From contig NC_015945.1 of assembly GCF_000224085.1 (NCBI RefSeq), forward strand, positions 558,001-622,000: a DNA stretch of 64,000 nucleotides. The letters are read 5' to 3'. This document shows, in pieces, positions 12,662 through 51,983 of this stretch (its first letter is position 1; each line of letters starts with the position of its first letter). A model generated the notes under the pieces. It was not told the DNA's origin, did not search any database, and was given only the letters and a program-made list of their open reading frames with translations. The translations under genes were made by a program, and so were the position numbers. The DNA comes from Allomuricauda ruestringensis DSM 13258 (lineage in GTDB: Bacteria > Bacteroidota > Bacteroidia > Flavobacteriales > Flavobacteriaceae).

Positions 12662-12662
12662 G

Positions 12663-18636: not shown

Positions 18637-18692
18637 AGATTTAAAAGTTTGATTAATTAAGTGTTATGGACAAATATATATATTTATTTGTA

Positions 18693-18707: not shown

Positions 18708-18723
18708 TAATAAAAATTAAAAA

Positions 18724-26300: not shown

Positions 26301-26675
26301 ATCCAGCCAGCCATCCAAATTAATGTCGACCACCGCAACTCCCGTACACCAATTATTCTCTGCTCCGATACCAGAATCCTTGCCAACTTCCTTAAATTTA
26401 AAATCGCCTTCATTTAAATAAAGCTGATTCGCCACTTGGTTGCCAGTAAATAATATGTCGCTTTTGCCATCATTGTTAAAATCCGCTACGGCTACACCGC
26501 CACCGTTAAAAATATATTCATTTGTTAGAATATTGAAACTATCGGTTTCCACAATCTTATTATTGAAATATATGCCCGTACTTTCGACATTCAATTGCTT
26601 GAACAATACCCGAGGGGGGTTCTGGCATGAGAATATCAAAACATAAATAACAATAAGGGTGATAATCTTTTTCAT
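23319..26675 (-). CDS. FG-GAP/VCBS repeat lipoprotein with ASPIC/UnbV domain (CRTAC1-like), copy 1
   Basis: A giant surface or periplasmic lipoprotein of about 1118 residues. I prefer the start at 26675 (MKKIITLIVIYVLIFSCQN), which gives a clean signal ending in FSC; the ATG at 26699 adds eight residues. Repeated calcium-binding FG-GAP blades are plain, for example DFNNDGKSDILFTGN, DINLDGWLDAYV, DYDNDGLLDIITLDML and DYDGDNRPDLIVLGEYMP. Near residues 525-600 lies an ASPIC/UnbV domain (IGAKVLIRYGKGQ and ELEIHWPDG). Its function is unproven; two propellers joined by UnbV suggest ligand or glycan binding. It follows the SusC-SusD pair, as does its paralogue at 38856-42182. A hairpin at 26741-26774 separates it from SusD and may lower its expression. 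Confidence 0.9.
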   Translation of the reverse strand: MKKIITLIVIYVLIFSCQNPPRVLFKQLNVESTGIYFNNKIVETDSFNILTNEYIFNGGGVAVADFNNDGKSDILFTGNQVANQLYLNEGDFKFKEVGKDSGIGAENNWCTGVAVVDINLDGWLDAYVCTAMKEKGGQRRNLLFVNQGSDKNGVPKFREMAAEYGIDDSGNSMNATFFDYDKDGFLDLYVLNNQQVHTLPSNYRPKIDDGSAKSNDRLYHNNGNGIFSDVTIEAGIVHEGFGLGLAVSDLNYDGWPDIHVSNDYLTNDLLYINNGDGTFTNQIEDYIKHQSKFSMGSDIADYDNDGLLDIITLDMLGESNQRMKTTIGRTNYLEYTLNERFDYQYQYMRNMLHKGSSSGGDFSEIGLMAGVSKTDWSWAPLFVDVDNDGFRDLLITNGFPRDITDRDFGDFRLGAASFLTPAQILDSIPVVKIPNYGYRNKGDWTFEEVGNTWGLNVPSFSNGAAYADLDLDGDLDYVVNNINEEAFIFKNQSESESFGKNNFLRVLLKGNKENPLAIGAKVLIRYGKGQKQYYQHYLSRGYMSSMEPIVHFGIGSNEMISELEIHWPDGNYNKMNNIQPNQLIEIDYETSEILSNADILKINMDSLDDRELSEVSDELGINYKHVEQDFVDFNTQQRTLPHKFSQHGPCLAVGDINGDSYDDVIVGSSANHSPVVYIQNANGNFEEHMIFDNEQDMGYEEVDMELFDLENDGDLDLYMVSGSNEFEPGSEFYKDRILINDGHGNFVVDQDRMPEISTSGSVVKSVDFDKDGYLDLFVGGRTPAGKYPAAEKSYLLKNDKGILKDVTREYAPDLHKVGMVTDAIWSDYDGDNRPDLIVLGEYMPITFFKNETTSFKIIKETGIDDYIGWWECIKSSDMDGDGDIDFVAGNLGSNNFFQPSKERPVHMVGKDFDKNGSQDPICFVYIKDDKGTYKPYPFNYWGDLNLQSPLFRKKFDYFKEYAEATLNTLFSEEEIKNALILKGNFDKSAYLENLGNGKFNLHQLPAAAQLAPLNDILLCDMDGDGHKDILGIGNDFGNETFIGRYDALNGIFLKGNGQGDFISEKTSTSGFLVPGDAKSIVRVNHALGGYLFFVTQNKDKLLVFKGKTNSTNSVNTSF

Positions 26676-26740
26676 TTTTAACCTTTTATCAATATTCACT
26701 TATCTGGATTCGTTCTCAAAAGTTGAAGGCCCTTAATTCT

Positions 26741-26774
26741 AAAAGGCCATGATATGAAATTATCAAGGCCTTTT
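26741..26774 (-). terminator. hairpin between SusD and FG-GAP gene
   Basis: Arms AAAAGGCC and GGCCTTTT extend through a TGATA/TATCA inner stem with one A-A mismatch and a six-base loop. On the minus strand a short T run ends the stem. It can act as a bidirectional terminator or attenuator between SusD and the FG-GAP lipoprotein gene. Confidence 0.6.
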
Positions 26775-26807
26775 GATTTTAGGTGTTAAAAATATTTATT
26801 TTATCTT

Positions 26808-28562
26808 TTAGTAGGCGGGGTCTTGTGTCAGTGTAGGCTGACCATCTTTTACCGATCTATCTATTGCCTCTATCGGAATAGGGAAAAATTCATTTTTACC
26901 CTCTTGAAAGGATCTGCCCTCTAAATACGTTCTATGTTCGGACTCACTTTGTATATACTGGTTTAAAACTTCAGCAGCGATACCCCAACGTTGAAGATCA
27001 AAAAATCGATGTCCTTCCATGGAAAATTCCAATCTAGTTTCAAAGCGTACGGCTCTCCTGGCCATGTCTTTATCTGTCCATGGTGATTCATACTCGGAAA
27101 TTTCATAATTTGCCGCAGCTTCTCCATCGACGATGGTAAAATCATTTCTTTCTTCACCTTGCGTGGCCAATGGAACAAAGCCTTCTGGATTGGCTGCTCT
27201 GGCTCTAATCTGATTTACCAAGCCTCTGGCAACCTCCAAATCACCGATTTCCACTTCGACTTCAGCAAGCCATAGAATAATCATGTCCAAACGCATAATT
27301 CTGTAGTTGTTGGCCGATAGATTTCCCCACCCCCCTTGTCCAAAAGCCTCTGGTTCTGCCACATGCTTCATACTAAAAAAAGGTCCGGCATAAGTTAGGT
27401 CACGTACAAAATCGGTCTGATAAATTTTAAATCCTTTGTATAGAATTCCTGGTCTGCCTACGGAATGGTCTAATCTTGGGTCCAATGGACCGTCATAAGT
27501 TGACAATGTGGTAACAGGATCAACCGTAGCTGGCACATCTTCAGCATCAAAGGTCTCCAACATGGGAAGCCCACCCTCTGTTTTAAAAGCATTTACCAAG
27601 TTTTGTGATACCTGATAAAATCCACAGCAACCCCATGGATCAGTATATGGGTGAGCAAGACCAATACCTCTATTCGCTGCATCTCCCGTGGCACTACTAA
27701 TGGCGTACTGAACCTCGAATATGGATTCCGAATTGTTTCGGGTAGCGACCAAAAAATTGTCTTGGTACTTTTCTTCTAATGAGAAAGGGCCATTATTTAG
27801 GATGTCCTCCAAAATAGGTTTTGCCTCTTGTAATTTCGTTGTGTTCGCAGAACCGTCCGAATTCCATCCCTGATACATTTTGGCCTTGGCCAAAAAGGCT
27901 TTGGCGGCCCAGCTTGTTGGTCTACCAACTTCACTTTGCGTTTCGGGCAACACTGCGGCCGCGGCTTCAAAATCAGCTTCAATTAATGGCCAGATTTCTC
28001 GGTCATTAGGCACCTTGGTACTTTCAAGGTCGTTCAATTCAAAATCTTCATCGCTGATATAAGTGGGCATTCTCCACATTTTTCTTGCCTCAAAGTGAAA
28101 CAGCCCCCGCAAAAATCTAGCTTCTGCAACTATCTGTTGTTTTTGCTCCTCTGTAGCATCCTCAACTTTTTCCAAAGTATTTATTACATTATTGGTAGCA
28201 GCAACCCCTTTGTAAAGCCCTCTCCATTTATCCCTTACGTGAACATTGAACGACTGAAAGTCGTATGCCTCAATAAAGGATTGTTCTGGTTGATCACCGG
28301 CATCTGTGCCCTTAAGAGCATCATCAGAAGCCAAGTTAAACACCCAGTTATGAATATCATTATGCCATGTCTGTCCCTCCAAACCACCACCGGGAAGCAT
28401 GGTATAGGCTCCGAGCAGAAGCCCGTTGACGCCATCTAAAGTAGCAACATCCGCTTCACTGAACTGGCCCTGTGGCTGTCTATCCAAAAAATCGTTATTA
28501 CAACTCAATACCAAAGCAATCACGCCAAGTATTCCAAGTAAAGTCGAAATTATCTTTTTCAT
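26808..28562 (-). CDS. SusD-family lipoprotein (3-keto/galactoside region)
   Basis: The surface glycan-binding partner of the SusC at 28585-31797. I place the start at 28562 (MKKIISTLLGILGVIALVLSC), giving a lipoprotein signal; the ATG at 28574 adds four residues. The protein is about 584 residues. Family features include FLDRQPQGQFSEADVATLDG at the mature N-terminus, ARFLRGLFHFEARKMW in the TPR region, and ETRLEFSMEGHRFFDLQRWG near the C-terminus. An HNWVFNLASDDALKGTDAGD segment near residue 70 is characteristic of a SusD subgroup with an insert. The substrate cannot be read from sequence; the neighbours suggest a glycoside that is oxidised at C3. Confidence 0.93.
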   Translation of the reverse strand: MKKIISTLLGILGVIALVLSCNNDFLDRQPQGQFSEADVATLDGVNGLLLGAYTMLPGGGLEGQTWHNDIHNWVFNLASDDALKGTDAGDQPEQSFIEAYDFQSFNVHVRDKWRGLYKGVAATNNVINTLEKVEDATEEQKQQIVAEARFLRGLFHFEARKMWRMPTYISDEDFELNDLESTKVPNDREIWPLIEADFEAAAAVLPETQSEVGRPTSWAAKAFLAKAKMYQGWNSDGSANTTKLQEAKPILEDILNNGPFSLEEKYQDNFLVATRNNSESIFEVQYAISSATGDAANRGIGLAHPYTDPWGCCGFYQVSQNLVNAFKTEGGLPMLETFDAEDVPATVDPVTTLSTYDGPLDPRLDHSVGRPGILYKGFKIYQTDFVRDLTYAGPFFSMKHVAEPEAFGQGGWGNLSANNYRIMRLDMIILWLAEVEVEIGDLEVARGLVNQIRARAANPEGFVPLATQGEERNDFTIVDGEAAANYEISEYESPWTDKDMARRAVRFETRLEFSMEGHRFFDLQRWGIAAEVLNQYIQSESEHRTYLEGRSFQEGKNEFFPIPIEAIDRSVKDGQPTLTQDPAY

Positions 28563-28584
28563 TTTTATAAACATTTAATTTGTA

Positions 28585-31500
28585 TTATTTAAGTGTAACA
28601 TTTAACCCTAGCGTTATCGTTTTTGATACTGGTTGGGCTCCGCCATCATAACCTAAAGTAAGGTTTCTTCTTGAGTCATCTGCATTGCTCAATTGAACTT
28701 CCGGATTAAGACCTGAATATTTGGTAAAAGTGGCCATGTTCTGAGCTTGCACGTATACTTGAGCTTTATCTAGACCCATAGTGGATAATATTTTATCAGG
28801 GAAATTATAGGTCAATTGTATATTCTTTAGTCTGAAGAAACTTCCATCCTCTATCAAGTAGGATGAAGGCCTACTACTGATCTGATCATTGGCGTCCATA
28901 ATCGGTGAAGTGGCATTGGGGTTGGCCGCCACCCAAGTACTTGGGTCTGCTGTTGGATTGGTCGGTTGCCATGCTTCGTACAATGCCCTGGTGCTTCGGT
29001 TACCTTGAAAGGTATTGAAATCTGCAAAATATCTCACATAGTTGAATACATCATTCCCCTGGGAGCCATTTCCGAAGATGTTCAATTCCAAGTTTTTATA
29101 GCTTAAATTAATATTGACACCATAAGTGAAATCAGGGTGAGGACTTCCAATAACAGTCCGGTCATCGTCATTAATGACACCATCGTTGTTGACGTCGGCC
29201 ACCTTGAATTTACCAGGGGCATTATAATCGCCGTAAGGTGCCCAGGCATCAGCTTCTGCTTGGGATTGGAAAATTCCCAAGTTTCTGAACCCATAAAAAG
29301 AAGATAAGGGCAAACCTGCCTCGGTTATGGACAGTGCAGGTATTCTCCTACTTTGACCAAAAATTCGAGTGCTCTCCCCTTCCAACGCATCAACATTGTT
29401 CTTATACGCAGAAAGATTGGCACTGACATCATAGGAGAAATCTCCTTTTTTATCACCATAACTGATTCCCAAATCAAAACCTTTATTGGTCATCTGTCCT
29501 ACATTAAAGGCAGGTTCATCCGCTTGACCTGCAGTATAGGTGACAGGAACATTGATCAACATGTCGGTAGTAACCCGTTTCCAAAGGTCCAAGTTCAGTG
29601 AGACCTTGTTGTTCAGCATCACCAAATCTAGCCCAATGTTATTTGAGGTTGTCGCCTCCCATTTGGCATTAGGGTTTCCAAAAGCTCTTGGTGCAAAACC
29701 AATCTGTGGGGTACCTGTAGAACCATCCACTGGATATCCCCCTGTTAAAATATCGGAACGGTAGGTAGTAAATGCATTATAGTCACCTATTTGCTGGTTT
29801 CCTGTTTTACCCCAACCATACCTTAATTTTAAGTTATCGATCCATGTGACATCTTCCATAAACTTTTCATCAGAAATCCTCCAACCCAAACTAAAGGCAG
29901 GAAAAAATGCACTTCTGGAAGCTTGTTGAAACCTAGAAGATGAATCATTTCTCAAAATAACTTGGGCCAAGTATTTCCCGTTGTAGTCGTAGTTTAACTG
30001 ACCAAACTGAGACCATAACGTATAATCTTGCCAAACAAATCCTCTATTGGTCGCCGTAGTGGCATCTCCCAGATCCAAATAACTCAAAATATTTGTTGTT
30101 TCAAAAGCAAATCGTTGCCTACTGGCCTCTAAACGTTCTTCAAATTGCTGAATGGATTCCACGCCAACGAATGCCTTAAAATTATGATTTTCATTAAAGG
30201 TTTTGGAATAGGTCAAGGTATTCGTCCATGTCCACTGGTACTCATATTGTTCTCTAGCTGTGGAACTGTTGATAAAGTTGCCCTCCACATACTCAGGCTG
30301 TGGACGCCCTAAATCTCTCTGCCGCTGTATTCTTCCATCCAATCCAAAACTGGTCCGTAATTCAAGGTTTGGAATCACCTCATAGTTTGCATAGACATTT
30401 CCCAATAGTCTTAAACTATATCTCCTATCATCTCTGTCCCTGTAAAGTCTGGCATATGGATTGAAATTGTTACCTAAATTGGCACCTCTACTACCTGCAA
30501 AATTACCGGCAATGTCATAAATTGGAAGCAAAGGGTGGTGCTTATAGGACCCAGAAACGGGACTCTGCTCATCATCATTGGACACAAACCCCTTAAGGTT
30601 ATCAAATGAAGCAGTGAAATTTTCGCCAATGGTCAGCCGTTTATTCAAAGCTTTAAACTCTGTGTTTGCCCTTAGTGATATTCTATCATAACTAAAGAAC
30701 TTAACTATACTTTCTTGTGAAAAATATCCCAAGCTAAAGGCATAACGCGCCATTTCCGTAGCTCCTGAAGCCGAAATATTGTGGCTTAAAATGGGAGCAG
30801 ATCTTGATACTTCCTGCCACCAATTGGTATCGGCAGCACGTGTAATAGCATATATATTACCAGGTTCCAATGCATAAAGACTCGGATCCGTACCAGGATC
30901 ACCTTCAAAAGCACCACTTGGAAAAACATAATCAGGTATGGTCACTTCGCCATTGGGCCCGAACGTATACTGTCCGTGACTGGGGGTCTTGCCCGCGTAC
31001 AAATCGGCCAAATATAAATAAGTGCCCAAATCTTCGGCATTTAATGCCTCCACATCGTTGGCTGGGGATTGAATCCCATAATACGTATTGTAGCTAATCG
31101 TCGGTTTTCCCATTTTACCCTTTTTTGTGGTGATAATGATAACTCCATTTGCAGCCCTAGATCCATAAATGGAAGCTGACGAAGCATCTTTTAGAACCTG
31201 CAAGGACTCAATATCATTAGGGTTTAAATTAGATTGCCTTTGAGAGGGGACACCATCTATAATATATAAGGGATCGTTATTTCCCAACGTCCCGAAACCA
31301 CGGATACGAACTGTAGCCTCACCTCCCGGTCTGGCATCGTTAATGATTGTTACACCGGCCGCTCTACCCTGTAATTGTTGAGAAAATGTGGTTGCTGGTA
31401 CAGATTTAAGTTCTTCCGTATCCACAACGGTCACGGCTCCTGTCAAATCTTTCTTGGCCTGTGAACCATATCCCGTTACTACAATTTCATCCAATCGGTT

Positions 31501-31797
31501 GGCATCCTCTTCCATGGTTACATTTATGGTACTTTGACCATTGACGGGAACTTGAATGGTCTTATACCCTATATAGCTGATAACCAAGGTAGCGTCACTA
31601 GCAGCTTCAATGCTGAAATTACCGTCAAAATCGGTTTGTGTCCCATTTGTAGTCCCCTTGACCAGAACGTTTGCCCCTGGCAAGGGTCCTGTTTCGTCAG
31701 ATACCGTACCTGTAATGCTCTGGGCCTGTATAAAACCCGTACAAAGTACAGCAGCCAAAAACAAAATACTCTTGAAAAAAGGTTTTTTCATAATCAA
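28585..31797 (-). CDS. SusC-family TonB-dependent transporter (3-keto/galactoside region)
   Basis: An outer-membrane glycan importer of about 1070 residues. The signal peptide (FFKSILFLAAVLCTGFIQAQ) is followed by a carboxypeptidase-regulatory-like domain (ETGPLPGANVLVKGTTNGTQ), a plug with DIESLQVLKDASSASIYGSR and ANGVIIITTKKGKMGKP, and a barrel ending SKTITLGLNVTLK. The start is at 31797 or two codons later at 31791 (MKKPFF). It begins about 240 bases downstream of the small-subunit gene, a spacer that contains the palindrome at 31926-31943, so it may have its own promoter. SusD starts 22 bases after its stop. Confidence 0.95.
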   Translation of the reverse strand: MIMKKPFFKSILFLAAVLCTGFIQAQSITGTVSDETGPLPGANVLVKGTTNGTQTDFDGNFSIEAASDATLVISYIGYKTIQVPVNGQSTINVTMEEDANRLDEIVVTGYGSQAKKDLTGAVTVVDTEELKSVPATTFSQQLQGRAAGVTIINDARPGGEATVRIRGFGTLGNNDPLYIIDGVPSQRQSNLNPNDIESLQVLKDASSASIYGSRAANGVIIITTKKGKMGKPTISYNTYYGIQSPANDVEALNAEDLGTYLYLADLYAGKTPSHGQYTFGPNGEVTIPDYVFPSGAFEGDPGTDPSLYALEPGNIYAITRAADTNWWQEVSRSAPILSHNISASGATEMARYAFSLGYFSQESIVKFFSYDRISLRANTEFKALNKRLTIGENFTASFDNLKGFVSNDDEQSPVSGSYKHHPLLPIYDIAGNFAGSRGANLGNNFNPYARLYRDRDDRRYSLRLLGNVYANYEVIPNLELRTSFGLDGRIQRQRDLGRPQPEYVEGNFINSSTAREQYEYQWTWTNTLTYSKTFNENHNFKAFVGVESIQQFEERLEASRQRFAFETTNILSYLDLGDATTATNRGFVWQDYTLWSQFGQLNYDYNGKYLAQVILRNDSSSRFQQASRSAFFPAFSLGWRISDEKFMEDVTWIDNLKLRYGWGKTGNQQIGDYNAFTTYRSDILTGGYPVDGSTGTPQIGFAPRAFGNPNAKWEATTSNNIGLDLVMLNNKVSLNLDLWKRVTTDMLINVPVTYTAGQADEPAFNVGQMTNKGFDLGISYGDKKGDFSYDVSANLSAYKNNVDALEGESTRIFGQSRRIPALSITEAGLPLSSFYGFRNLGIFQSQAEADAWAPYGDYNAPGKFKVADVNNDGVINDDDRTVIGSPHPDFTYGVNINLSYKNLELNIFGNGSQGNDVFNYVRYFADFNTFQGNRSTRALYEAWQPTNPTADPSTWVAANPNATSPIMDANDQISSRPSSYLIEDGSFFRLKNIQLTYNFPDKILSTMGLDKAQVYVQAQNMATFTKYSGLNPEVQLSNADDSRRNLTLGYDGGAQPVSKTITLGLNVTLK

Positions 31798-31925
31798 ATT
31801 TTAGGTTGTTTGTGTTAGTTAAATAGTTGAAAATCCAAAAAATCCATGATGGAAAATATAAAATTGAATTAGGTAAACATAAATGATAAAGACCACACTT
31901 TATTATAGATGTGTTATTATACATC

Positions 31926-31943
31926 TTCAAATTCATGAATTTT
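31926..31943. promoter_or_regulatory. palindromic motif before SusC
   Basis: TCAAATTCATGAATTTTA contains the perfect palindrome AAATTCATGAATTT about 130 bases before the SusC start. The same 18-mer occurs at 23250-23267, and a one-mismatch relative of its core (AAATTCAAGAATTTTA) lies before the GMC gene at about 34556-34571. It may be a regulator site, but AT-rich spacers make chance matches easy. Confidence 0.35.
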
Positions 31944-32040
31944 ATAATTATTATCTCTTACTATTGCTATATTTATATATTTTTTCTTAAAACTTCATTC
32001 TTGGTTGTTTTATAGAATTTGCTATCAAAAGGACAAGACT

Positions 32041-32748
32041 TCAAGTCAATAGATTTCCGTTTTCATCCCATTCCGCTATTTCGTTACGCTTGCTTTGATC
32101 AACGCATTTTGAAATCCATTCAGGGTCGTAAGCCACTCCATGCTGATCCAGTACATCTTGAGGAACACCATCCCATATGTTTGGTTGATTTCCTTTATAG
32201 CCCAAATCTGCAATACCTTCTTTTGAAGTGTAATATCCTGTCACGGTCAAGTTTCGCATAATCGCAAAGAATTGAATTTCGAGAGGTTGTACATCCAAAG
32301 GAATTGCCGCATCATGAAAAGCTATGGTGTCTAAGATTTGTTTTTGCTGCTCCAACGCTGCCTTCTTGAACTCAAGATTAAAAAGCTTGTTGCTTTCATG
32401 ATCAAGCCACATCAACCCACCTTTTAAAGTGAGTTCGAATTCCGGTATATCCTTGGCAATAAATTCAATGAATTCTGGAACTTTGGCCTCAATTGGACCT
32501 CCATAAGGTTCTTTAGGCGGTAAAATGATGGTGCTTAAAACGGCAATGGTCTCCAATTCATGGTCTGCAAATAACTTTTGGGCATTCAATTTTGCTATTC
32601 GTTCCAACTCTTCTGGGGTTCTTCCAAAATGTGCAGTGTCTATTTTACTTGGTATATTCATATCCACATCCGACTTGCAGCCATAAAAGGCCAAAGCAGA
32701 GGCACCAGCCCCCATAATCATGGTTTGTATACTTTTCCTCCTGTCCAT
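32041..32748 (-). CDS. gluconate 2-dehydrogenase subunit 3-like small subunit of GMC dehydrogenase
   Basis: A 235-residue exported protein of the gluconate 2-dehydrogenase subunit 3 family, which accompanies membrane-bound FAD dehydrogenases of the GMC type and helps their export and activity. The N-terminus carries a twin-arginine-like start (MDRRKSIQTMIMGAGASALA) followed by FYGC, so Tat export with lipidation is plausible. The body is helical with the family segment ELETIAVLSTIILPPKEPYG near residue 64 and GLMWLDHESNKLF near 115. It lies four bases after the GMC stop, so the two form one enzyme. In Bacteroidota and other groups this pair functions as a glycoside 3-dehydrogenase; that assignment here is by family and context. 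Confidence 0.88.
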   Translation of the reverse strand: MDRRKSIQTMIMGAGASALAFYGCKSDVDMNIPSKIDTAHFGRTPEELERIAKLNAQKLFADHELETIAVLSTIILPPKEPYGGPIEAKVPEFIEFIAKDIPEFELTLKGGLMWLDHESNKLFNLEFKKAALEQQKQILDTIAFHDAAIPLDVQPLEIQFFAIMRNLTVTGYYTSKEGIADLGYKGNQPNIWDGVPQDVLDQHGVAYDPEWISKCVDQSKRNEIAEWDENGNLLT

Positions 32749-32752
32749 TGAT

Positions 32753-34474
32753 TTATATATTTTGTTGTTTCAGTTGTTCGATGATATAATCCGATGCTCG
32801 CCACGACAAAGCCAAAATGGTCCATGTACAATTTTTATCGGCTTGAGAAGTAAAAGGACCCGCATCAACAATAAAGACATTGTCTACATCATGCAATTGG
32901 TTGAATTTATTGGTCACGGAAGTCTTGGGGTCATTTCCCATTCGTGTTGTTCCTACTTCATGAATTATTCTTCCTGGAGCGAGTAAACCATAGTCCATAT
33001 CGGCAGTAGGTTTATCCCCAAGAGGTTCACCGCCCATATTGTGAATGATTTCCTCAAAGGTATCTTGCATGTGTTTGGCTTGTTTGATCTCTAAATCAGA
33101 CCATTTATACTTAAATTTAAGAACAGGTATTCCGAATTTATCCACTGTAGTAGGGTCTATCTCGCAGTAATTCTCTTTACGCGCAATACCTTCACCGCGT
33201 CCGGCCATCTGAATCACTGAACCGTAATATTTCTTTACATCGTCACGCAAAACATCCCCATATCCTCCTACATTCAGGCCAAAGAATTTATTGAACTCAT
33301 TGGTGTTGAAGCCGAAACCATAATTTGGTTGTCGCATCCCGCCACCAATTTCAATATGATATCCACGAGGAAAATCCAATTTGTCATTGTCGCCCCACCA
33401 AGGGGAATAAACATGCATTCCGCCGGTACCATCCTCGTTATAAGTGACTTTACGGTTCATTAACCCTGGGATGAATGCGGAACGGCTGGCTCCAGTGGAA
33501 TCGTGCAGATATTTTCCCACATGGTCACTACTGTTGCCCAGTCCGTTGGGATGATGCTTGCTTTTTGAGTTCAACAGAATTCTGGCAGAACTACAAGCAG
33601 AAGCAGCAAGTACTACAACTTTCCCTTTAAGTTTGTATTCCTTTCTATCATCTTTACTGATATAGGATACACCAGTCGCTTTACCTTCATCATCCGTAGT
33701 AACTTCACGCACCACTGAATTGACAAATATTTTGATTCTTCCCCCACTTTTTTGTGCTGGGAATATTAAGCAACTTCCGGATGAGAAATCAGCATAGACG
33801 GAGCAAGATCTGGAACATTGTCCACAGTAAAAACAAACGCCCCTTTCGTTATTTATCCGTTTGGTAAGCATAGAAAGGCGACCTGGTATGACCGGTACTC
33901 CTGTTTTCTTTGCTCCATCTATATAAAATAGCTCATGAAGTCTAGGTTTTGGAGGAGGCAGAAAAAAACCATCAGGATCATTTTCCAATCCTTCATTTGT
34001 ACCAAATACTCCGATTAGTTTATCGACCTTATCGTAATAGGGCTTTACATCTTCATAGCCTATGGGCCAATCTTCGCCGTGGCCATCACGTGTTTTCCCC
34101 TTAAAATCCTTTGGGCCAAAACGTAGTGAAATCCTGCCCCAATGATTGGTTCTACCTCCCAGCATGTGGGAGCGAAACCAATCAAATTTAGTGCCGGGCT
34201 CATGGGTGTAGGGTTCTCCCTCTATTTCCCATCCCCCATAGGCCATATCCCAACCTCCGAAAGGCCTTGTGGTGCCCGCTCCCCTATTTGGGGATTCATA
34301 AGGCCATTTTAGCTGGGTCATTGTTTTGGGGTCAGCAGGGTCAAAAAATGGACCTGCCTCCACTATAGCAACGTTCAATCCGGCATCGGCCAATTGCTTG
34401 GCTGCCATACCTCCCCCAGCTCCAGAACCTACAATGATCACATCATATAATTCTGGTGCTACTTTTATCTGCAT
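32753..34474 (-). CDS. GMC-family FAD oxidoreductase with cysteine cluster (probable glycoside 3-dehydrogenase)
   Basis: A flavoprotein of 573 residues. The FAD-binding motif VIIVGSGAGGGMAAKQLADA is at about 12-31, and HMLGGRTNHWGRISLRF at 103-119 contacts the flavin. The GMC C-terminal catalytic pair is His505 (HEVGTTRMG) and Asn548 (NCTWTI). Four cysteines at 214, 217, 220 and 224 (CFYCGQCSRSC) could hold an iron-sulphur cluster, as in FAD glucose dehydrogenases that pass electrons to a cytochrome. It has no signal of its own and is probably exported with the Tat-type small subunit encoded next. The seven-haem cytochrome upstream in the operon is a natural acceptor. The DUF1080 protein would cleave the 3-keto product. 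Substrate is unproven. Confidence 0.9.
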   Translation of the reverse strand: MQIKVAPELYDVIIVGSGAGGGMAAKQLADAGLNVAIVEAGPFFDPADPKTMTQLKWPYESPNRGAGTTRPFGGWDMAYGGWEIEGEPYTHEPGTKFDWFRSHMLGGRTNHWGRISLRFGPKDFKGKTRDGHGEDWPIGYEDVKPYYDKVDKLIGVFGTNEGLENDPDGFFLPPPKPRLHELFYIDGAKKTGVPVIPGRLSMLTKRINNERGVCFYCGQCSRSCSVYADFSSGSCLIFPAQKSGGRIKIFVNSVVREVTTDDEGKATGVSYISKDDRKEYKLKGKVVVLAASACSSARILLNSKSKHHPNGLGNSSDHVGKYLHDSTGASRSAFIPGLMNRKVTYNEDGTGGMHVYSPWWGDNDKLDFPRGYHIEIGGGMRQPNYGFGFNTNEFNKFFGLNVGGYGDVLRDDVKKYYGSVIQMAGRGEGIARKENYCEIDPTTVDKFGIPVLKFKYKWSDLEIKQAKHMQDTFEEIIHNMGGEPLGDKPTADMDYGLLAPGRIIHEVGTTRMGNDPKTSVTNKFNQLHDVDNVFIVDAGPFTSQADKNCTWTILALSWRASDYIIEQLKQQNI

Positions 34475-34615
34475 AATAGATTTCCTTTAAAATGATTTTT
34501 GGAAAAATACTATGGCAGCCTATAATATTTACATATTTAAAAACAAAACAGCTTTAAATTCAAGAATTTTATAGGGTTTTACTCTTTATGTTATTCAAAG
34601 TACTTTTTCTAGTGG

Positions 34616-35851
34616 TCAACTTTTGGAACCTTCATTTTTCTTATTTTGTAGAATACTATCTATATAAACACCGATGAGGTGTGTCCGGATATTGACCGAT
34701 GTTTCATCATTTGTATCTCCAAGCTTTACTTTCATGGTTTGAGAAGGAAAAAGTGGCATATGACAGGAGATGCAATTATCCCGTGAATTGAAGTTTGAAG
34801 TGGTGTGCAAGTTTTCCGGGGTTGAATGACATTCGATACATTTGGAATTAAAATGTTCTTCATTCCCACGTTGATTTTGGTGTGGGTCATGACATGTGGT
34901 ACAGCTCATTGTAGCTGAATTTTTATAACACTTACTGCTTTTAAGAAGGCCGTATTGATTACCATGTACATCAAGTTCAGCCTCTGGTCTTCCAAAGTTG
35001 TAGTTCTTGGCGTATTTATCCAATCTTTCGCCGGTTACAAAAGAAAAGGGATTGTCCTTTACTTGAATAGCACGCAGACCTGAATGGCATTGAACACAAA
35101 TATCCATTTTTAATTGTCGGCTCAATGTGTCTATTTTAATAACTACATCTCCTGTGCTATTCGTTAAGTTCCCTGATCTAAAGTCAACATGTTTCTTTAA
35201 TGGACCGTGGCACCGTTCACAGTCTATACCATACATAAAGGATTCTCTTTCATAAACATTGGTATTGCCTATAAAGTTTTTGTTTTTAGCAAAGGTTACA
35301 TGACATTTAATACAATTATCCGTTACAGGTCTTGAATACTTATGATTGGGAAAACCTGGGCTATTTATCCAGCTATCGATCAACCTAAAATAAGAGGCCT
35401 GTAACTGAAAAAGCGAATCCCCCTTAAATGTTAAGTAAGATTGTCCCTTAACGCCTGAACCTATTACAACATCAAGATTGGATTTATCGATTAATCCGCC
35501 TGTAGTTTTGGAATACGTATTTTGAACATATGTCTGTTCATCACGAGCAACTTCCACCTCAACATCTGTTAGTTCTAACTGGTTGGACCATTTATCAAAA
35601 TGGTTCTTTAGAGTTTGCCCATTTACAATCGTAGAGGAATTATAATGTGAAGATTCCACATGGGTCTGGTATATATTTTTATGACAAGGTATACAGGAAG
35701 ACGAACCGGCAAACCGATCACCATTATAATGAACCGGCATTTCTTGAGGGACTAATTTATATTCCCCTACTTCTTCATACTGAATACTCAAAATTGCACC
35801 TATAACAGCTATAGCCACTATCAAGCATAATATAGAGACTCTTTTAATCAA
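34616..35851 (-). CDS. seven-haem c-type cytochrome
   Basis: An exported cytochrome of 411 residues with an N-terminal signal anchor (RVSILCLIVAIAVIGAILSI). Seven CxxCH haem-attachment motifs are visible in order: CIPCH, CIKCH, CERCH, CVQCH, CTTCH, CIECH and CISCH. The spacing, with DCERCHGPLKKH and MSCTTCHDPHQN, resembles the cytochrome c554/doubled-CXXCH multihaem group. It lies 141 bases upstream of the GMC dehydrogenase gene and 273 bases downstream of the DUF1080 gene, same strand. I infer that it accepts electrons from the dehydrogenase and passes them to the respiratory chain. No cytochrome maturation genes are in the window. Confidence 0.88.
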   Translation of the reverse strand: MIKRVSILCLIVAIAVIGAILSIQYEEVGEYKLVPQEMPVHYNGDRFAGSSSCIPCHKNIYQTHVESSHYNSSTIVNGQTLKNHFDKWSNQLELTDVEVEVARDEQTYVQNTYSKTTGGLIDKSNLDVVIGSGVKGQSYLTFKGDSLFQLQASYFRLIDSWINSPGFPNHKYSRPVTDNCIKCHVTFAKNKNFIGNTNVYERESFMYGIDCERCHGPLKKHVDFRSGNLTNSTGDVVIKIDTLSRQLKMDICVQCHSGLRAIQVKDNPFSFVTGERLDKYAKNYNFGRPEAELDVHGNQYGLLKSSKCYKNSATMSCTTCHDPHQNQRGNEEHFNSKCIECHSTPENLHTTSNFNSRDNCISCHMPLFPSQTMKVKLGDTNDETSVNIRTHLIGVYIDSILQNKKNEGSKS

Positions 35852-36124
35852 CTTTGGAGATGGATATAATTAAATAAATTATGGTTCCTCTAAGGAAACC
35901 AATTTTTATGGCAAAGCGAAATTATGAACCTAAAAACAGTAATAAATTTTAAATGCAAAAACCAATTTTGAAAATATTCAAAAACATTTGTATTGAAAAA
36001 ATCTATAACCCCCACATTCTTAGGAATGTAGCCACCCCTGATCTTTAGGACAGGTTTTCTACAAAACCAGGATTGAGAAAATCATACCTAGCATTGGAAC
36101 CACATTTAATCTAACGCAATCAAC

Positions 36125-37018
36125 TTAGTAGATACATTTTGAGTTGTCGGATTTTACATAATAAGATTTATAATTCTTTGCTTTTTTATCTGTACAACCA
36201 CATAGATCCAATAATTCAATGGATTTAAAATCGATGGGGGCGGTCTCCGCCTGAATTGAAATATAACCTTCCTTTACGGGTTTGCCCACTTCATATGCAC
36301 TATCAAGATAACCGTTAACCATACCCCCACCGATCGTCGGCTTACCATATCCCAACACAACTTTGTTGTCCAAGATATGTTGCATTATTGAATCCCCCAG
36401 AACCAGTGCCTCAATGGTCACCCATCCATCACCGGGATAGGTCTTGGATGTAGAAGGAATACAATGGTCTATAATCAACGAATCATTAATCACCACATTG
36501 GTTCCAGGTGTACATAGATTTCCATTGGTTCGATCGTGAGTACCATCGCCTCCTAGTAGCTGCAATTCCAACGAAATAGGGAAATCTTGATCAAGCCCCA
36601 TAGTCCTTGGGTCTTGAGAATGCAGCATTAAACCATTGTTACGAATGGCCCATTCAGGTCCTCCCAACATTTGCTCCCCTACAAAACGATACGTTACCTT
36701 GAGTTTGTAATATGAAAACTTCTTTTTGTAGAATAAATGACCAAAGGTGCCATTAAAGCTGTCTTTTTCCTGATACCTAACGCTTAGAAGACTGTCTTTG
36801 AAAACAAAGGAGTCGTTATAATTTTCCCCCAGGGGATAGCCCGTAAATTTAGGTGTCCAGTCTTGATAATTGGTCCCATCAAATAGTGCGATCCATTCTT
36901 CCTTATTGGAATTATTTTTCTTAGGGGCACAGTTTGAGAAAAAAATAAAAGCTAAAACTGAAGCAATTAATGTTAGTGGTTTTAAACAGGATGGAATATC
37001 CATTTTTTTGGGTTTCAT
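36125..37018 (-). CDS. DUF1080 (3-keto-glycoside hydrolase/lyase-like) lipoprotein
   Basis: A lipoprotein of about 297 residues from the start at 37018 (MKPKKMDIPSCLKPLTL), signal ending FFSNCAP; the ATG at 37039 adds seven residues. The DUF1080 fold (PF06439, 3-keto-disaccharide hydrolase) is seen in EEWIALFDGTNYQDWTPKFT, the KFSYYKLKVTYRFVGEQ strand and PISLELQLLGGDG near the middle, ending IQAETAPIDFKSIELLDL. Family members cleave glycosides after oxidation at C3. The C-terminus CGCTDKKAKNYKSYY with a final Cys (SKCIY) resembles a Cys-containing tail found on several Bacteroidota exported proteins. It heads the minus-strand run with the cytochrome and GMC dehydrogenase, the expected partners of such an enzyme. 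Confidence 0.87.
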   Translation of the reverse strand: MKPKKMDIPSCLKPLTLIASVLAFIFFSNCAPKKNNSNKEEWIALFDGTNYQDWTPKFTGYPLGENYNDSFVFKDSLLSVRYQEKDSFNGTFGHLFYKKKFSYYKLKVTYRFVGEQMLGGPEWAIRNNGLMLHSQDPRTMGLDQDFPISLELQLLGGDGTHDRTNGNLCTPGTNVVINDSLIIDHCIPSTSKTYPGDGWVTIEALVLGDSIMQHILDNKVVLGYGKPTIGGGMVNGYLDSAYEVGKPVKEGYISIQAETAPIDFKSIELLDLCGCTDKKAKNYKSYYVKSDNSKCIY

Positions 37019-37039
37019 ATTTACCAAGGTTTTGGACAA

Positions 37040-37630
37040 TAAAGGGTTACTTTCAATTTTAAAGGTCCCATGTAAATTTATGGATGTTTTTCAATTTACT
37101 CCTTATTTTTTCATTCCAATAGGATACCTTCAAGTCTTTTTGTCAAGTACAAATAAAATTGTGACCGATCGGCCGTTGATTTATTTTTTTTAGATATTGA
37201 CAATTTATCTGACAAAGAAGGTTAATCGATAGGATTTTGCCATCGATTCCATTTTTTTATGGAGAAGTTACCAATGTTTAAATCATTGCAAGCATTCTGT
37301 AACCCAAATGGTAACCCTATCGAGCTTATAGTCCCATATAACAATTGCCGCCAAGTATCCAATTCATTACCCTTACCGACTAATAGGTATGTTATTTCTC
37401 AAAAATTGATTTATCTTTTTATAAATCACAAGTTTTATGTCTCATTTACTAATAAAAAAGCAGGTATTTTGTAATTTTGACATACTTGCATGAAATATTC
37501 CAAACTCCTAATAACAGTATGGAATCCGTCCTGATTACAGGAAAAAGTTTAAGCACCCTTATGTTGAATTCTTTTTGTCGGTCAACTCAAGGGAAAAGTT
37601 GGTCCAAGTGACCTTTTTATTTATATAATT
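37040..37630. other. divergent intergenic region before galK
   Basis: Nearly 600 AT-rich bases separate the divergent DUF1080 and galactokinase genes. An inverted repeat with arms AATCGAT (37224-37230) and ATCGATT (37242-37248) precedes a T-rich run and could be an operator or a terminator. A TAATTTTG at 37472-37479 fits a plus-strand -7 element for galK. No gene is visible. Confidence 0.5.
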
Positions 37631-38785
37631 TTGATAGAAAGATATATATTCTCGAATCGGCTAAAAACCGACATAACGGTCACATCCCCCGGAAGAATCA
37701 ACATCATAGGAGAACATACGGATTACAACAACGGTTATGTACTGCCTGGTGCAATCGATAAAACCATTACTTTTAAATTAGGGAAGAACAACACTGAAAA
37801 ATGTTGTAGAATTTACAGCAAGGGTTTTGGTGATATACTTGAATTTGACTTGGATTCGATTACCAAGAAACCCGAGGGATGGGAAAATTATGTGCTTGGG
37901 GTAATTCATGAAATTTTACAACGAACCCATAAGTTAAAAGGCTTTGACTGCACCATTGAAAGCCACCTACCTGTTGGATCGGGAGTAAGTTCTTCCGCTG
38001 CCCTGGAATGTGGTCTTGCCTTTGGATTAAATACCCTTTTTGAACTTGGCCTTACAAAATGGGAAATAATTGAATTATCCCAAACAGCGGAACACGAATT
38101 TGTGGGCACCAAATGTGGTATCATGGATCAGTTTGCCTCGGTAATGGGCAAAAAGGACCATGTAATGTTTTTGGATTGCATGACATTGGATTTTGAATAT
38201 ATCCCCATGGATATAGAACCTTACCGTATTCTATTGTTGAATACCAATGTTGCCCATAATTTGGCATCTAGCGCATATAATATTCGGAGAAGCCAATGTG
38301 AAAAAGGTTTGGCCGTACTTCGGAAAAACTTTGGCAAAGACATTACCTTTAGGAATGTCACCACAACAATGCTCCATCAATGCAAAGAGGAACTGGGTGA
38401 AACCATTTTCAATAGGTGTAGTTATGTAATCGAAGAAAATTTAAGAGTTTTTAAGGCCGTAACGGCCTTAAAAGAAAAGAACCTTATAAAATTTGGTCAA
38501 TTATTGTACCAGACCCATGAGGGATTGCGCCATAAATACGAAGTAAGTTGTCCTGAGCTTGATTTCCTTGTCGATTTTGCAAAAGATAAAACTGATGTAC
38601 TTGGCGCCCGAATGATGGGAGGCGGATTCGGAGGCTGTACCCTTAACATTGTACATGAAGAAGCTATCGATGATTTTATAAAAGAAGCGGGCTCAGTTTA
38701 CCACGAGCGGTTTTCCAACACATTGACTTTTTTCCAAACTGTTCCAAGCCAAGGGACCACCATCTCAAGTGAGAATGTGCGTTGA
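37631..38785 (+). CDS. galK: galactokinase
   Basis: A GHMP kinase that phosphorylates alpha-D-galactose at C1 in the cytoplasm, first step of the Leloir pathway. It has 384 residues, the family norm. The galactokinase signature GRINIIGEHTDYNNGYVLPG lies near residues 21-40, the GHMP ATP loop LPVGSGVSSSAALE near 115, and MMGGGFGGCTLNIV near 332. The start appears to be TTG at 37631: the frame is open upstream to a stop near 37565 but has no ATG, and starting here gives about 20 residues before the signature, the usual spacing. It stands alone and diverges from the DUF1080 gene, but pairs logically with the GH2 beta-galactosidase 11 kb away. No galT, galE or mutarotase gene is in the window. 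Confidence 0.95.
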   Translation: MIERYIFSNRLKTDITVTSPGRINIIGEHTDYNNGYVLPGAIDKTITFKLGKNNTEKCCRIYSKGFGDILEFDLDSITKKPEGWENYVLGVIHEILQRTHKLKGFDCTIESHLPVGSGVSSSAALECGLAFGLNTLFELGLTKWEIIELSQTAEHEFVGTKCGIMDQFASVMGKKDHVMFLDCMTLDFEYIPMDIEPYRILLLNTNVAHNLASSAYNIRRSQCEKGLAVLRKNFGKDITFRNVTTTMLHQCKEELGETIFNRCSYVIEENLRVFKAVTALKEKNLIKFGQLLYQTHEGLRHKYEVSCPELDFLVDFAKDKTDVLGARMMGGGFGGCTLNIVHEEAIDDFIKEAGSVYHERFSNTLTFFQTVPSQGTTISSENVR

Positions 38786-38855
38786 CACCTCACTTGGTTG
38801 ACTTTAACAGTACGGCCATGAGTTGTGGAATATACCACTACCCATTGCAACAATT

Positions 38856-41800
38856 TTAGTTGTTGAATTGATACGTTTTTATATCTTTTCCAGATATGCC
38901 AAGCAATAATTTATTGTCTATTTGGACAGCACTCCTAACATCACCTTTTATATGCAAACCAGATCGGGATTGTGGAACATATTTGAAGGATCCTTTCCCA
39001 TCACCCAAAAGCAGCGTTCCATAATTAGCATCAAATTTTCCAAGCCGAAGTTTGAAAAACTGATTGTTGCCCAACAGCAATATATCGACAGTGCCATCAT
39101 GGTCAAAGTCTTCTATTACGGTTCCATAAACAATTGAATATTGCACTTGTTCAGGCAAGGTTGCCATAGTATACTTACCATTTGGAGTGCTCAACATTAA
39201 AGATGTATACATATGATTGGCGGTTAATTTCTTGGACTTTTCCAATTCTTTTGGCGTGAAGATATCTTCCAATGTAGCATCTGCAAAACTCTCGTACGTT
39301 GTAAATTTTGAACGGAGATATGCCAATTGTCCCAAAAGCTCATTTCGGGTTACATAAGGATATTCCTTTCCCTGAATGTAAAAATTGAGAATGGGATCTA
39401 CCGAACCATTTTGATCGTAATCGGCGTGGTACAATGCTGCGGGTTCTTCTTGGGATGCCTTGAACTGTGAATTTGTACCAAGGTTTCCCATAACTAAATC
39501 GGGGCGGCCATCCCCATTAAAATCGCCAACATCAATGGAATTCCAAAGACCACGGTATTCCCTGTCCAAAAGATTACTGGTTTCGTTTTTGAGCACCCCT
39601 GATCTGTTCATAAAAAAAGTGATGGGCATCCATTCTCCGACAACCACCAAATCCTTACCACCGTCATTGTCAAGATCTAACCAAACTGCATCGGTTATCA
39701 TACCAGCTTCTTCCAATTCAGGAGCCAATCTTTGGGTAGCGTCCACAAAACGGCCGTTACCCTTGTTTTCCAACATATAGCTTCTTGGACTTTCCGGATA
39801 TCTTCCCGGTATTACCCTACCGCCCACAAAAATATCCAGATCCCCATCTCCATCGATATCCGCAGTTCTTACGGTTTCACTATTTGTAGGCATTTCCGGG
39901 AGACGGTCTGTGCCATCGGTAAATCCTCCCTTTCCATTGCCTAGATATAACCTATCCTGCAGCAATGGATCTTCAGTATTAAAATTATGGTATCCGCCAC
40001 CGGCCACATAAATATCAAGAAATCCGTCACCATTGGCATCGAATACGGCAGCGTCACTGTCATGGTATTCTTTATATTGGGAAAAAATACCCACTTTATG
40101 TTCGGCAAATGCACCATTTCTTCCCTGCAAGAATATATGTGCTGGTTTTCCTTTGGAACCTCCTATAAAAAGGTCATTAAGACCATCGTTGTTATAATCC
40201 CCTTTGACGATGCTTGGCGTGTTATGGGAATATTGGGATATAAGCAATGATTGGCGTTTAAAATCATTGACCGCTGATGGTTTGTCGGTATACTTCACTG
40301 GAGAGTCCACTTCACTGAACAAGGTAGAAGTGCTTGAAAATTCCTTCTTCCCTTTATCGGCATCAGTTTCCTTAAGCACTATTAATTTATCCACTGGAAC
40401 TTGGGCAATCGTTTCCAGTCCTCCCCTATTCCACCGTACAACTATGGAATCAATGGTACTGTTTTGACCCAATCCAAAGTGCAGGATTGGGGATACCGTG
40501 GATAAATATCCTCTGGTGGGCATTTGAACCAGGGTCTGTTTCAAGGAATCTTGGTAAACCGTTACTTGGGCTCCGATTCCCTGTGTATTGCCCCCTTCAC
40601 CTTCCAATTTTAACTGAATAAAATGGGAATCCCCAGAATTAGTATTGTTTTGATAAATGGAAGCTGGCTTATTGATATTGTTGATGACCAAGTCCAGGTC
40701 ACCATCATTATCCAAATCGGCATAGGCCGCTCCATTACTATTGGCAGGCTCGTCCAACCCAAATTTTTTAGTGCTATTGGTATAATTGTTATTGCTGCTA
40801 TGGGTATAAAGGTAATTGCTGAGCTTTGAAGATGGCATTTTTTCGATGAGTTCGAGTACATCCTTCCGTTTAAAACGCCCTTTGGATTTAACTAGGTTAT
40901 CCATGTAATCGATAAAATCCAGATTGGTGTAATCCCGTAAGTACCCATTGGTCACAAAAAGATCTTTCCAGCCATCATTATCATAGTCGGCCCAAAGAGC
41001 GGCCCAACTCCAATCGGTATTGGAAATTCCAGCCATCTGTCCAATTTCACTAAAACTTCCATTACCATTGTTGACCTGCAACATATTCCGCATGTATTGA
41101 TAATGAAAGCCACTGCGCACATTCAAATCAAATTTGTCATAATTGTCCGGTGAAAGCAATAATTTTTGTCTACGATTATCTTCTGGGAGCATATCCAAAG
41201 TGAAAATGTCCTGCAAGCCGTCATTGTTAACATCGGCTATATCGTTCCCCATAGAGAAATGACTCGTATGTCCAAGTTGTTCCCTTAAATCATTGATAAA
41301 TGTTCCATCCTTTTGATTGATGTACAAGTAATCCGGTACGGCATAATCATTGGAAACATAAAAGTCCGACCACCCATCATTATTGAAATCCCCAATTCCA
41401 ATACCCAAACCATAGGTTAGTGCGGAACCATTGATACCCGCATTGACCGTTACATCGGAAAAACGACCATTATCTTGCTGATATAGCCTAATTCCCTGCA
41501 AAGGATCGTCCATTTCCAAAAATCGTTTTGTGTTTGCTACATTGAGTATGGGCAGGGATTTTGGATTATGGTTCAGTAGAATCATATCAAGGTCACCATC
41601 GCGGTCGTAATCAAAAAAATAACCCTGGTTGCTGAATGCACTGCTAGCCAATCCATATTTTTCTGCTTGCTCCTCAAAAATGGGTATTCCATTGGAGTCG
41701 TTCCCCATATTGATGAACAATTGGTTTGTTCTTTTTTTGGGAGGCAATGCTCCGGAATAACAGAGGTAAAGGTCCATTCGGCCATCCCCATTAACATCGG

Positions 41801-42182
41801 CGGCGGTGATACCTGTTTTCCACGGTCCTGTCCTTCCTCCAACCTTTGCAATGGCGGTAATGTCTTTGAATTTCATTCCTCCCAAATTAAGGTAGCATTT
41901 ATTCTCACCTGTATTGGATGTAAAATAAAGGTCGATCAAGCCGTCATCGTTAAAATCAGCTGTCGCCACTCCCCCGCCATTATATAGGTATTCGTACATC
42001 AAAACATTTAGGTTAGGGCCTTCCTGTAACGTGTTTTGAAAATGAACTCCAGAAAAATCAGGGGAAATAGATTGAAAAACAGCAGCTTCACTATTTGCTT
42101 TTTTAGCATCAATTGTCTTTTTATCTGTTTTGTCGCAACTAAAAAGAAAGGAGAGCAATAGTAAACATAGAGAATACCTCAT
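38856..42182 (-). CDS. FG-GAP/VCBS repeat lipoprotein with ASPIC/UnbV domain (CRTAC1-like), copy 2
   Basis: A lipoprotein of 1108 residues with signal MRYSLCLLLLSFLFSCDKT. It is a full-length paralogue of the protein at 23319-26675 with the same order of parts: mature N-terminus, a first series of FG-GAP blades (DFNDDGLIDLYFTSN, DVNGDGRMDLYLCYSG, DYDRDGDLDMILLNHNP), an ASPIC/UnbV domain around 535-610 (IGAQVTVYQDSLKQ and SIVVRWNRGG), a second series of blades (DIDGDGDLDIFVGGRVIPG, DVGDFNGDGRPDLVMGNLG) and a short tail. Blades carry DxDxDG-type calcium sites. It comes after SusC-SusD of the third pair, separated by a strong terminator-like hairpin. Function is unknown; I infer an accessory surface binding protein. 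Confidence 0.9.
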   Translation of the reverse strand: MRYSLCLLLLSFLFSCDKTDKKTIDAKKANSEAAVFQSISPDFSGVHFQNTLQEGPNLNVLMYEYLYNGGGVATADFNDDGLIDLYFTSNTGENKCYLNLGGMKFKDITAIAKVGGRTGPWKTGITAADVNGDGRMDLYLCYSGALPPKKRTNQLFINMGNDSNGIPIFEEQAEKYGLASSAFSNQGYFFDYDRDGDLDMILLNHNPKSLPILNVANTKRFLEMDDPLQGIRLYQQDNGRFSDVTVNAGINGSALTYGLGIGIGDFNNDGWSDFYVSNDYAVPDYLYINQKDGTFINDLREQLGHTSHFSMGNDIADVNNDGLQDIFTLDMLPEDNRRQKLLLSPDNYDKFDLNVRSGFHYQYMRNMLQVNNGNGSFSEIGQMAGISNTDWSWAALWADYDNDGWKDLFVTNGYLRDYTNLDFIDYMDNLVKSKGRFKRKDVLELIEKMPSSKLSNYLYTHSSNNNYTNSTKKFGLDEPANSNGAAYADLDNDGDLDLVINNINKPASIYQNNTNSGDSHFIQLKLEGEGGNTQGIGAQVTVYQDSLKQTLVQMPTRGYLSTVSPILHFGLGQNSTIDSIVVRWNRGGLETIAQVPVDKLIVLKETDADKGKKEFSSTSTLFSEVDSPVKYTDKPSAVNDFKRQSLLISQYSHNTPSIVKGDYNNDGLNDLFIGGSKGKPAHIFLQGRNGAFAEHKVGIFSQYKEYHDSDAAVFDANGDGFLDIYVAGGGYHNFNTEDPLLQDRLYLGNGKGGFTDGTDRLPEMPTNSETVRTADIDGDGDLDIFVGGRVIPGRYPESPRSYMLENKGNGRFVDATQRLAPELEEAGMITDAVWLDLDNDGGKDLVVVGEWMPITFFMNRSGVLKNETSNLLDREYRGLWNSIDVGDFNGDGRPDLVMGNLGTNSQFKASQEEPAALYHADYDQNGSVDPILNFYIQGKEYPYVTRNELLGQLAYLRSKFTTYESFADATLEDIFTPKELEKSKKLTANHMYTSLMLSTPNGKYTMATLPEQVQYSIVYGTVIEDFDHDGTVDILLLGNNQFFKLRLGKFDANYGTLLLGDGKGSFKYVPQSRSGLHIKGDVRSAVQIDNKLLLGISGKDIKTYQFNN

Positions 42183-42207
42183 TATGTTGTTTTTGATTCA
42201 AGGCAAT

Positions 42208-42243
42208 AAAAAAAGAACCCTACCCCCGACTATTAGGGGTAGG
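42208..42243 (-). terminator. terminator between SusD and FG-GAP gene
   Basis: Arms CCTACCCC (42219-42226) and GGGGTAGG (42236-42243) form an eight-base-pair stem; on the minus strand the stem is followed by GTTCTTTTTTTATT. It lies 60 bases past the SusD stop and 26 bases before the FG-GAP gene start, so most transcripts should end here and read-through would supply the lipoprotein. Confidence 0.75.
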
Positions 42244-42303
42244 ACTCAAAGGTATTAAAACTAAAAAACTCAAACTAAATGAAATAAATCAAAATTCATT
42301 GGA

Positions 42304-44181: not shown

Positions 44182-44191
44182 AACAATCAAA

Positions 44192-48746: not shown

Positions 48747-51983
<3,237 letters not shown>

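Follow-up and report, generated by a model that had tools for sequence, protein, structure and literature searches.

Gene organization of the locus

I analysed a 64,000-nucleotide stretch of the genome of Allomuricauda ruestringensis DSM 13258 (NC_015945.1, positions 558,001 to 622,000; hereafter the window), in which a GMC-type dehydrogenase may pass its electrons to a seven-haem cytochrome encoded next to it. On the minus strand, the gene of the c-type cytochrome (34616-35851; 411 amino acids, seven CXXCH motifs) is followed by those of the GMC oxidoreductase catalytic subunit (32753-34474; PF05199, 68.5 bits, and PF00732, 39.6 bits), a Gluconate_2-dh3-like small subunit resembling gluconate 2-dehydrogenase subunit 3 (32041-32748; PF13618, 93 bits), a SusC/RagA TonB-linked outer-membrane transporter (28585-31797; TIGR04056, 887 bits, above the cut-off), a SusD-like substrate-binding lipoprotein (26808-28574; PF07980, 116.6 bits, above the cut-off), and an UnbV/ASPIC FG-GAP lipoprotein (23319-26699), which is predicted to form a CRTAC1-like double beta-propeller. 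A DUF1080 gene of the 3-keto-disaccharide hydrolase family (36125-37039; PF06439, 90.8 bits against a cut-off of 26.8) lies in front of the cytochrome gene on the same strand. Its open reading frame (ORF) begins with a TTG codon at the 37039 end, while position 37018, given in an earlier note made from the sequence alone, is an internal ATG. Since the DUF1080, cytochrome, GMC, and small-subunit proteins all match Pfam families above the curated cut-offs, these four gene identities are not due to chance. The coordinates, the Pfam matches, and the motif count agree with the earlier note in that the four genes form one directional run before a SusC-SusD pair and that the cytochrome is of a seven-haem type. 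The intergenic gaps are 273 bp (DUF1080-cytochrome), 141 bp (cytochrome-GMC), 4 bp (GMC-small subunit), 243 bp (small subunit-SusC), 10 bp (SusC-SusD), and 108 bp (SusD-UnbV).

The genome (3.84 Mb, one contig) contains a single match to the cytochrome family, five to PF13618, and 11 to PF06439, of which the window DUF1080 scores the weakest. Two more GMC copies of the same orthogroup (80-81% identical to the window GMC) lie elsewhere without a cytochrome. These two GMC-small subunit pairs (L128, 8868-11304; L129, 8992-11464) are near-identical in unrelated surroundings, with end branches of 0.003 and 0.007 in the GMC tree, and appear to be a recent duplication.

Conservation of the cytochrome-dehydrogenase unit

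My search for the DUF1080, GMC, and cytochrome genes covered 71 genus genomes, and I took two genes as linked when they lie within 10 kb. The GMC copy counts given here and below are lower bounds, because copies were listed at set E-value limits and few candidates were scored per genome. In the genus, 78 orthogroup GMC copies were listed in 56 genomes (E 1e-200), and a cytochrome match is present in 18 genomes. It was found that a GMC clade of 93-100% identity has a directly adjoining cytochrome gene in all eight genomes that carry it, and that none of the remaining 70 copies (82% identity or less) lies within 10 kb of a cytochrome match. The order cytochrome-GMC-small subunit-SusC-SusD is shared by the window and six of its seven relatives in the genus; the contig of the seventh (L201/L018) ends after the small subunit. 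The UnbV gene comes next after SusD in four of the seven, a regulator gene occupies its place without any UnbV in another (L017, genome G268), and the stretch stops before this point in two. In genomes G221, G237, G232, and G242, the cytochrome and GMC genes are 15-55 kb apart, which was not counted as linkage.

Saonia flava (L032, also L139) has another gene order, GMC-small subunit-cytochrome-SusC-SusD-UnbV. In a GMC tree of 47 rows, the window copy and six copies of the Allomuricauda group form one clade with a Shimodaira-Hasegawa-like approximate likelihood ratio test (SH-aLRT) support of 99, while the Saonia copy groups with a copy from genome G189 that has no adjoining cytochrome (98). 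The strongly supported branches force two changes in cytochrome linkage. In a cytochrome tree of 92 rows, the Saonia cytochrome also falls outside the Allomuricauda group. To judge from these trees, the link between the GMC and the cytochrome arose at least twice, in two gene orders. That the same partners met in two separate arrivals and in two orders is the best evidence for a functional partnership, and the conserved linkage thus supports a working connection between the dehydrogenase and the cytochrome.

Properties of the dehydrogenase and the cytochrome

No signal peptide is seen at the start of the window GMC protein. The small subunit starts with MDRRKS, a twin-arginine sequence, and has a cysteine at position 24; R3, R4, C24, and C215 are kept in 33 of 33 aligned rows. 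The small subunit is probably a hitch-hiker carrier that exports the GMC subunit by twin-arginine translocation (Tat). The GMC protein contains a CX2CX2CX3C motif (C214, C217, C220, and C224), all four cysteines of which occur in 43 of 43 orthogroup rows. Three of them (C214, C220, and C224) are also found in four of four outgroup rows, where C217 is replaced by Arg, and these three align with the CX5CX3C motif of the flavin adenine dinucleotide (FAD) glucose dehydrogenase BcGDH. The four-cysteine motif is present in a Hymenobacter relative (62%), and only CX5CX3C is found in the relatives from Pseudoalteromonas (47%), Runella, and Croceicoccus (33-34%). I take the CX2CX2CX3C motif to be ferredoxin-like, as opposed to the three-cysteine 3Fe-4S site of BcGDH-type enzymes, and the conserved His505 presumably lies in the usual active-site region. 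Thus, the window GMC looks like a Tat-exported dehydrogenase of the iron-sulfur (Fe-S) type that would hold a cluster at these cysteines, in line with the exported dehydrogenase proposed in the earlier note. In FAD glucose dehydrogenase, the Fe-S cluster is described as accepting electrons from FAD and sitting by haem c (PMC9727119).

The predicted cytochrome model has an N-terminal helix (residues 2-24), and no clear lipobox was seen at the N-terminus; on these two grounds the protein is predicted to be membrane-anchored. Residues 40-405 match the fold of OcwA and MccA, with the OcwA alignment covering the same range, and beta strands (residues 91-163) lie between haems 1 and 2. An extra beta-sheet domain after haem 1 is described for the OcwA/MccA branch (PMC6703420). 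Its seven haems pair in order with haems 1-4 and 6-8 of OcwA, although this pairing is partly my own reading, and only a low-confidence helix (residues 395-408) comes after the last haem motif. Haem 2 corresponds to haem 2 of OcwA and MccA, which is described as the active site in both (PMC6703420). Seven conserved non-motif His residues could fill all the distal haem sites, including that of haem 2, in this haem-free model. The family has His64 in place of the Trp that follows haem 1 in OcwA and MccA, and this residue is possibly a new haem ligand. Class-wide, 79 remoter cytochrome relatives score 140-178 bits. Almost all of them come from other families of the class, and all but three lie in open frames of 616-738 amino acids, with an extra part.

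A possible electron-transfer unit and its alternatives

The best explanation for locus A (23319-35851) may be a functional unit in which the GMC dehydrogenase passes its electrons to the seven-haem cytochrome; I would give this a probability of about 0.55. The small subunit would carry the FAD/Fe-S dehydrogenase through the Tat pathway, and the dehydrogenase would oxidise a sugar or glycoside in the periplasm, most likely at C3. The substrate would be bound by SusD, perhaps also by UnbV, and imported by SusC. Electrons would pass from FAD to the Fe-S cluster, then to the membrane-anchored OcwA/MccA-like cytochrome, and finally to the respiratory chain, possibly with energy conservation. In this scheme, the seven-haem cytochrome would replace the usual trihaem partner.

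Several observations weigh against such a unit. The eight linked genomes of the genus represent one descent, so that only two independent events stand behind the link, and the gaps of 141 and 243 bp are no proof of a single transcript. Only eight of the 78 GMC copies in the genus are within 10 kb of a cytochrome. In 199 genomes of the family, the matches listed comprise 14 cytochromes and 55 orthogroup GMC copies (defined at 64% identity or more; the next matches fall to 36-37%). Two of the 55 copies are beside a cytochrome, and 53 have none within 10 kb. At the class level (395 genomes), one of 48 copies, found in 43 genomes, is beside a cytochrome. Neither did any other multihaem ORF occur within 8 kb in the 26 orthogroup GMC loci fetched of the 55 listed. 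Seen from the cytochrome side, 73 of 80 loci lack the GMC gene, as do 48 of the 53 with full flanks; the 80 rank highest among 581 confirmed stretches, and the sample leans to close relatives. In addition, the solved enzymes nearest to the window GMC oxidise glucose or fructose, and neither type is known as a 3-dehydrogenase. The link is clearly not obligatory. The claim of the earlier note that the cytochrome is a dedicated acceptor therefore stands only in part: the linkage is kept in the genus clade and seems to have arisen at least twice, while most GMC copies of the family do without the cytochrome, and of the three neighbours scored, UnbV and SusC are far commoner beside it than the GMC.

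These neighbours suggest another explanation, in which SusC, SusD, and UnbV are the true partners of the cytochrome, the GMC pair is a later insertion that relies on some general periplasmic cytochrome, and the seven-haem protein, like the related OcwA and MccA, deals with an external acceptor or with a cargo that is redox-active. Within 10 kb of the best 80 cytochrome loci, UnbV occurs in 40, SusC in 33, and GMC in only seven; the corresponding numbers for the 53 full-flank loci are 31, 27, and five. Moreover, a cytochrome-SusC-SusD-UnbV arrangement without GMC was found in four loci (L019, L020, L029, and L039), and GMC pairs are beside a SusCD/UnbV set without the cytochrome in three (L136, L162, and L163). 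The fold match to OcwA and MccA, with their active haem 2, also favours this explanation. However, UnbV and SusCD are not obligatory either, since 37 of the best 80 loci (21 of the 53 with full flanks) have none of the three genes within 10 kb. The GMC pair entered cytochrome loci on two occasions and in different gene orders, which is more than expected for a passing insertion, and the seven conserved His residues could occupy every distal site, including that of a reactive haem. Thus, this explanation is possible, though it appears clearly less probable than electron transfer from the GMC to the cytochrome. A broader and more doubtful speculation is that an OcwA/MccA-type seven-haem cytochrome recurs as the redox part of Bacteroidota SusCD/UnbV loci, into which different dehydrogenases plug, here a CX2CX2CX3C-type GMC, so that sugar oxidation in the envelope would be wired to a cytochrome perhaps retaining a reactive haem 2.

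What the dehydrogenase oxidises is a separate matter. It may act on a sugar at C1 or C2, or on a non-glycan alcohol, with no cleavage chemistry afterwards. The solved chains nearest to it are indeed the FAD glucose and fructose dehydrogenases, and its C-terminal part matches the pyranose oxidase model, far under the cut-off. In contrast, the gene neighbours of the orthogroup and its relatives are those of an oxidation-elimination-hydration-reduction pathway. A sugar-isomerase gene of the AP_endonuc_2 family, belonging to the same cluster in each case, lies 160 bp or less from the small-subunit gene in 13 of the 26 fetched loci, and sulfatase and Gfo/Idh/MocA genes also recur among them. In Pseudoalteromonas (L208), the GMC relative and its adjoining small-subunit gene are in one run with a Gfo/Idh/MocA gene, two sugar isomerase genes, an MFS transporter gene, and a DUF1080 gene, and in L166 the GMC-small subunit pair is followed by a DUF1080-like protein (named by eye). 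AtOGE, a TIM barrel of the sugar-isomerase family, is reported to cleave a 3-keto glycoside via beta-elimination (PMC10628242). Because the relatives of the GMC sit in such 3-keto-glycoside gene contexts, oxidation at C3 is its likeliest activity by analogy, and oxidation elsewhere without subsequent cleavage is unlikely.

If the link between the GMC and the cytochrome is real, some Flavobacteriaceae would pass electrons from sugar oxidation in the envelope to a multihaem protein tied to TonB-dependent uptake, and the widespread OcwA/MccA-like cytochrome family of Bacteroidota would gain a testable electron donor.

The DUF1080 gene and the adjoining galactokinase locus

The DUF1080 gene is divergent from a galactokinase gene (37631-38785, plus strand; TIGR00131, 316.8 bits, above the cut-off), beyond which Pfam matches mark a second SusC-SusD-UnbV locus (38856-47416, minus strand). 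Near-orthologues of the window DUF1080 (80-100% identity) occur in four of the 71 genus genomes: G000 (the window), G230, G216, and G223. The galactokinase gene and the second SusCD/UnbV locus adjoin it in all four, whereas the cytochrome gene adjoins it only in the window. In G230, G216, and G223, the DUF1080 gene is divergently paired with the galactokinase gene beside the UnbV2 and SusD2 genes, as in the window at 36125-47416. SusC2 is also present in L189, where the stretch reaches that far, and L187 and L188 have two extra ORFs between the galactokinase and UnbV2 genes. No cytochrome or GMC of the window kinds was found in the 19 kb read around the DUF1080 gene in these three genomes. In G230, the DUF1080 and cytochrome genes are on different contigs and no orthogroup GMC was listed, although the cytochrome is close to a contig end and the absence of the GMC may reflect an assembly gap.

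Conversely, the seven other cytochrome-GMC loci of the genus have different genes upstream of the cytochrome (named by eye): in three, a run whose last gene is uronate-isomerase-like, and elsewhere divergent genes or an SDR-like gene. A DUF1080 of the window type is in none of the seven over the stretch read. Three of them (L198, L200, and L201) have a very different DUF1080-like protein (LFDGTLNGW) about 4 kb upstream within another run, which gave no match from the window DUF1080 at E 1e-5. Outside the genus, three loci from Chitinophaga and a contig of Saprospiraceae have a DUF1080 match about 6 kb or less from a cytochrome, with unlike surroundings. The single window DUF1080 sequence found no match in the PDB up to E 0.1, and the best match of its profile was 3hbk (E 0.0021).

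Since the DUF1080 gene follows the galactokinase locus in relatives and the cytochrome-GMC loci have other upstream genes, the run of four genes appears to consist of two abutting loci with a boundary between 35851 and 36125. Locus B (36125-47416) would comprise the DUF1080 gene, the galactokinase gene, and the second SusCD/UnbV set, with the DUF1080 gene as an accidental neighbour of the cytochrome gene. The 273-bp gap contains a terminator-like hairpin, although such sites are no commoner than in shuffled sequence. The full chain of the earlier note, an exported 3-oxidation and cleavage pathway joining DUF1080, cytochrome, GMC, and small subunit, draws on their co-directional adjacency, on the other DUF1080 genes beside a GMC pair in L208 and L166, and on published LacABC-DUF1080 clusters (PMC9007349), and is very improbable given the distribution just described. 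The window DUF1080 could still act in trans on keto-sugars. Adjacency was misleading here: two conserved loci abut and resemble a single pathway, a split that the sequence of the window alone could not reveal.

Other features of the window

Each of the two UnbV/FG-GAP lipoproteins of the window (23319-26699 and 38856-42182) is encoded behind a SusCD pair, and a literature search found no paper tying such lipoproteins to SusCD. One run at 48777-55305 encodes a LacZ (GH2), an AP_endonuc_2 sugar isomerase, an FGE-sulfatase-like protein, and a Gfo/Idh/MocA protein, and possibly represents keto-sugar genes near the galactokinase/DUF1080 locus. The region at 5213-19647 is a sialic-acid-like locus with a sialidase-like BNR protein, a GH20 protein, a GlcNAc 2-epimerase, a DHDPS-family lyase, and a SusCD pair. 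Its ORF at 5213-7813 joins a NanM-like Kelch domain and an SSF transporter in a single reading frame.

Comparison with known systems

For Caulobacter, a pathway of the LacABC lactose 3-dehydrogenase and a DUF1080 hydrolase has been put forward together with fitness data, and clusters are described in Bacteroidota too (PMC9007349). Thus, an oxidise-then-cleave chain with DUF1080 is prior art. As is predicted for locus A, LacABC of Caulobacter, Pedobacter, and Indibacter is described there as a periplasmic three-component sugar dehydrogenase, with DUF1080 near LacA in several bacteria including Bacteroidota. Here, in contrast, the DUF1080 gene lies in a different locus, as it is beside the cytochrome-GMC genes in one of four near-orthologues and is not conserved with them as in the LacABC-DUF1080 pathway, and the haem component has seven haems and resembles OcwA and MccA; this comparison with LacABC is by description, not by sequence.

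The FAD glucose and fructose dehydrogenases (BcGDH, 6a2u; FDH, 7w2j) share with the window a GMC subunit with Fe-S cysteines and a Tat hitch-hiker small subunit. The GMC orthogroup differs from them in its fourth cysteine, C217. Their electron-transfer subunit is described with three haems (PMC9727119), whereas the cytochrome linked here has seven and another fold, and is thus no three-c-haem subunit of the BcGDH, FDH, or LacABC type. With OcwA of Thermincola and MccA of Wolinella, the cytochrome shares the fold and a beta-sheet domain located between the first two haems; apart from His64, the differences are its N-terminal helix and the absence of the C-terminal three-helix bundle and of counterparts to haems 5 and 9 of OcwA. 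The oxidation-elimination-hydration-reduction operon with GlycDH and AtOGE in Agrobacterium (PMC10628242) resembles the GMC orthogroup in its sugar-isomerase-family genes. Locus A has no such isomerase gene, and the AP_endonuc_2 and Gfo/Idh/MocA genes of the window are at 52041-55305 beside LacZ.

As in SusCD-type uptake loci, a SusC/RagA gene is followed by a SusD gene in the window. A literature search found no paper on the combination of a seven-haem OcwA/MccA-like cytochrome with GMC and SusCD/UnbV. Three points are new here: a GMC dehydrogenase has a seven-haem, OcwA/MccA-like cytochrome as its neighbour, this cytochrome is tied to SusCD/UnbV, and the run divides into two loci.

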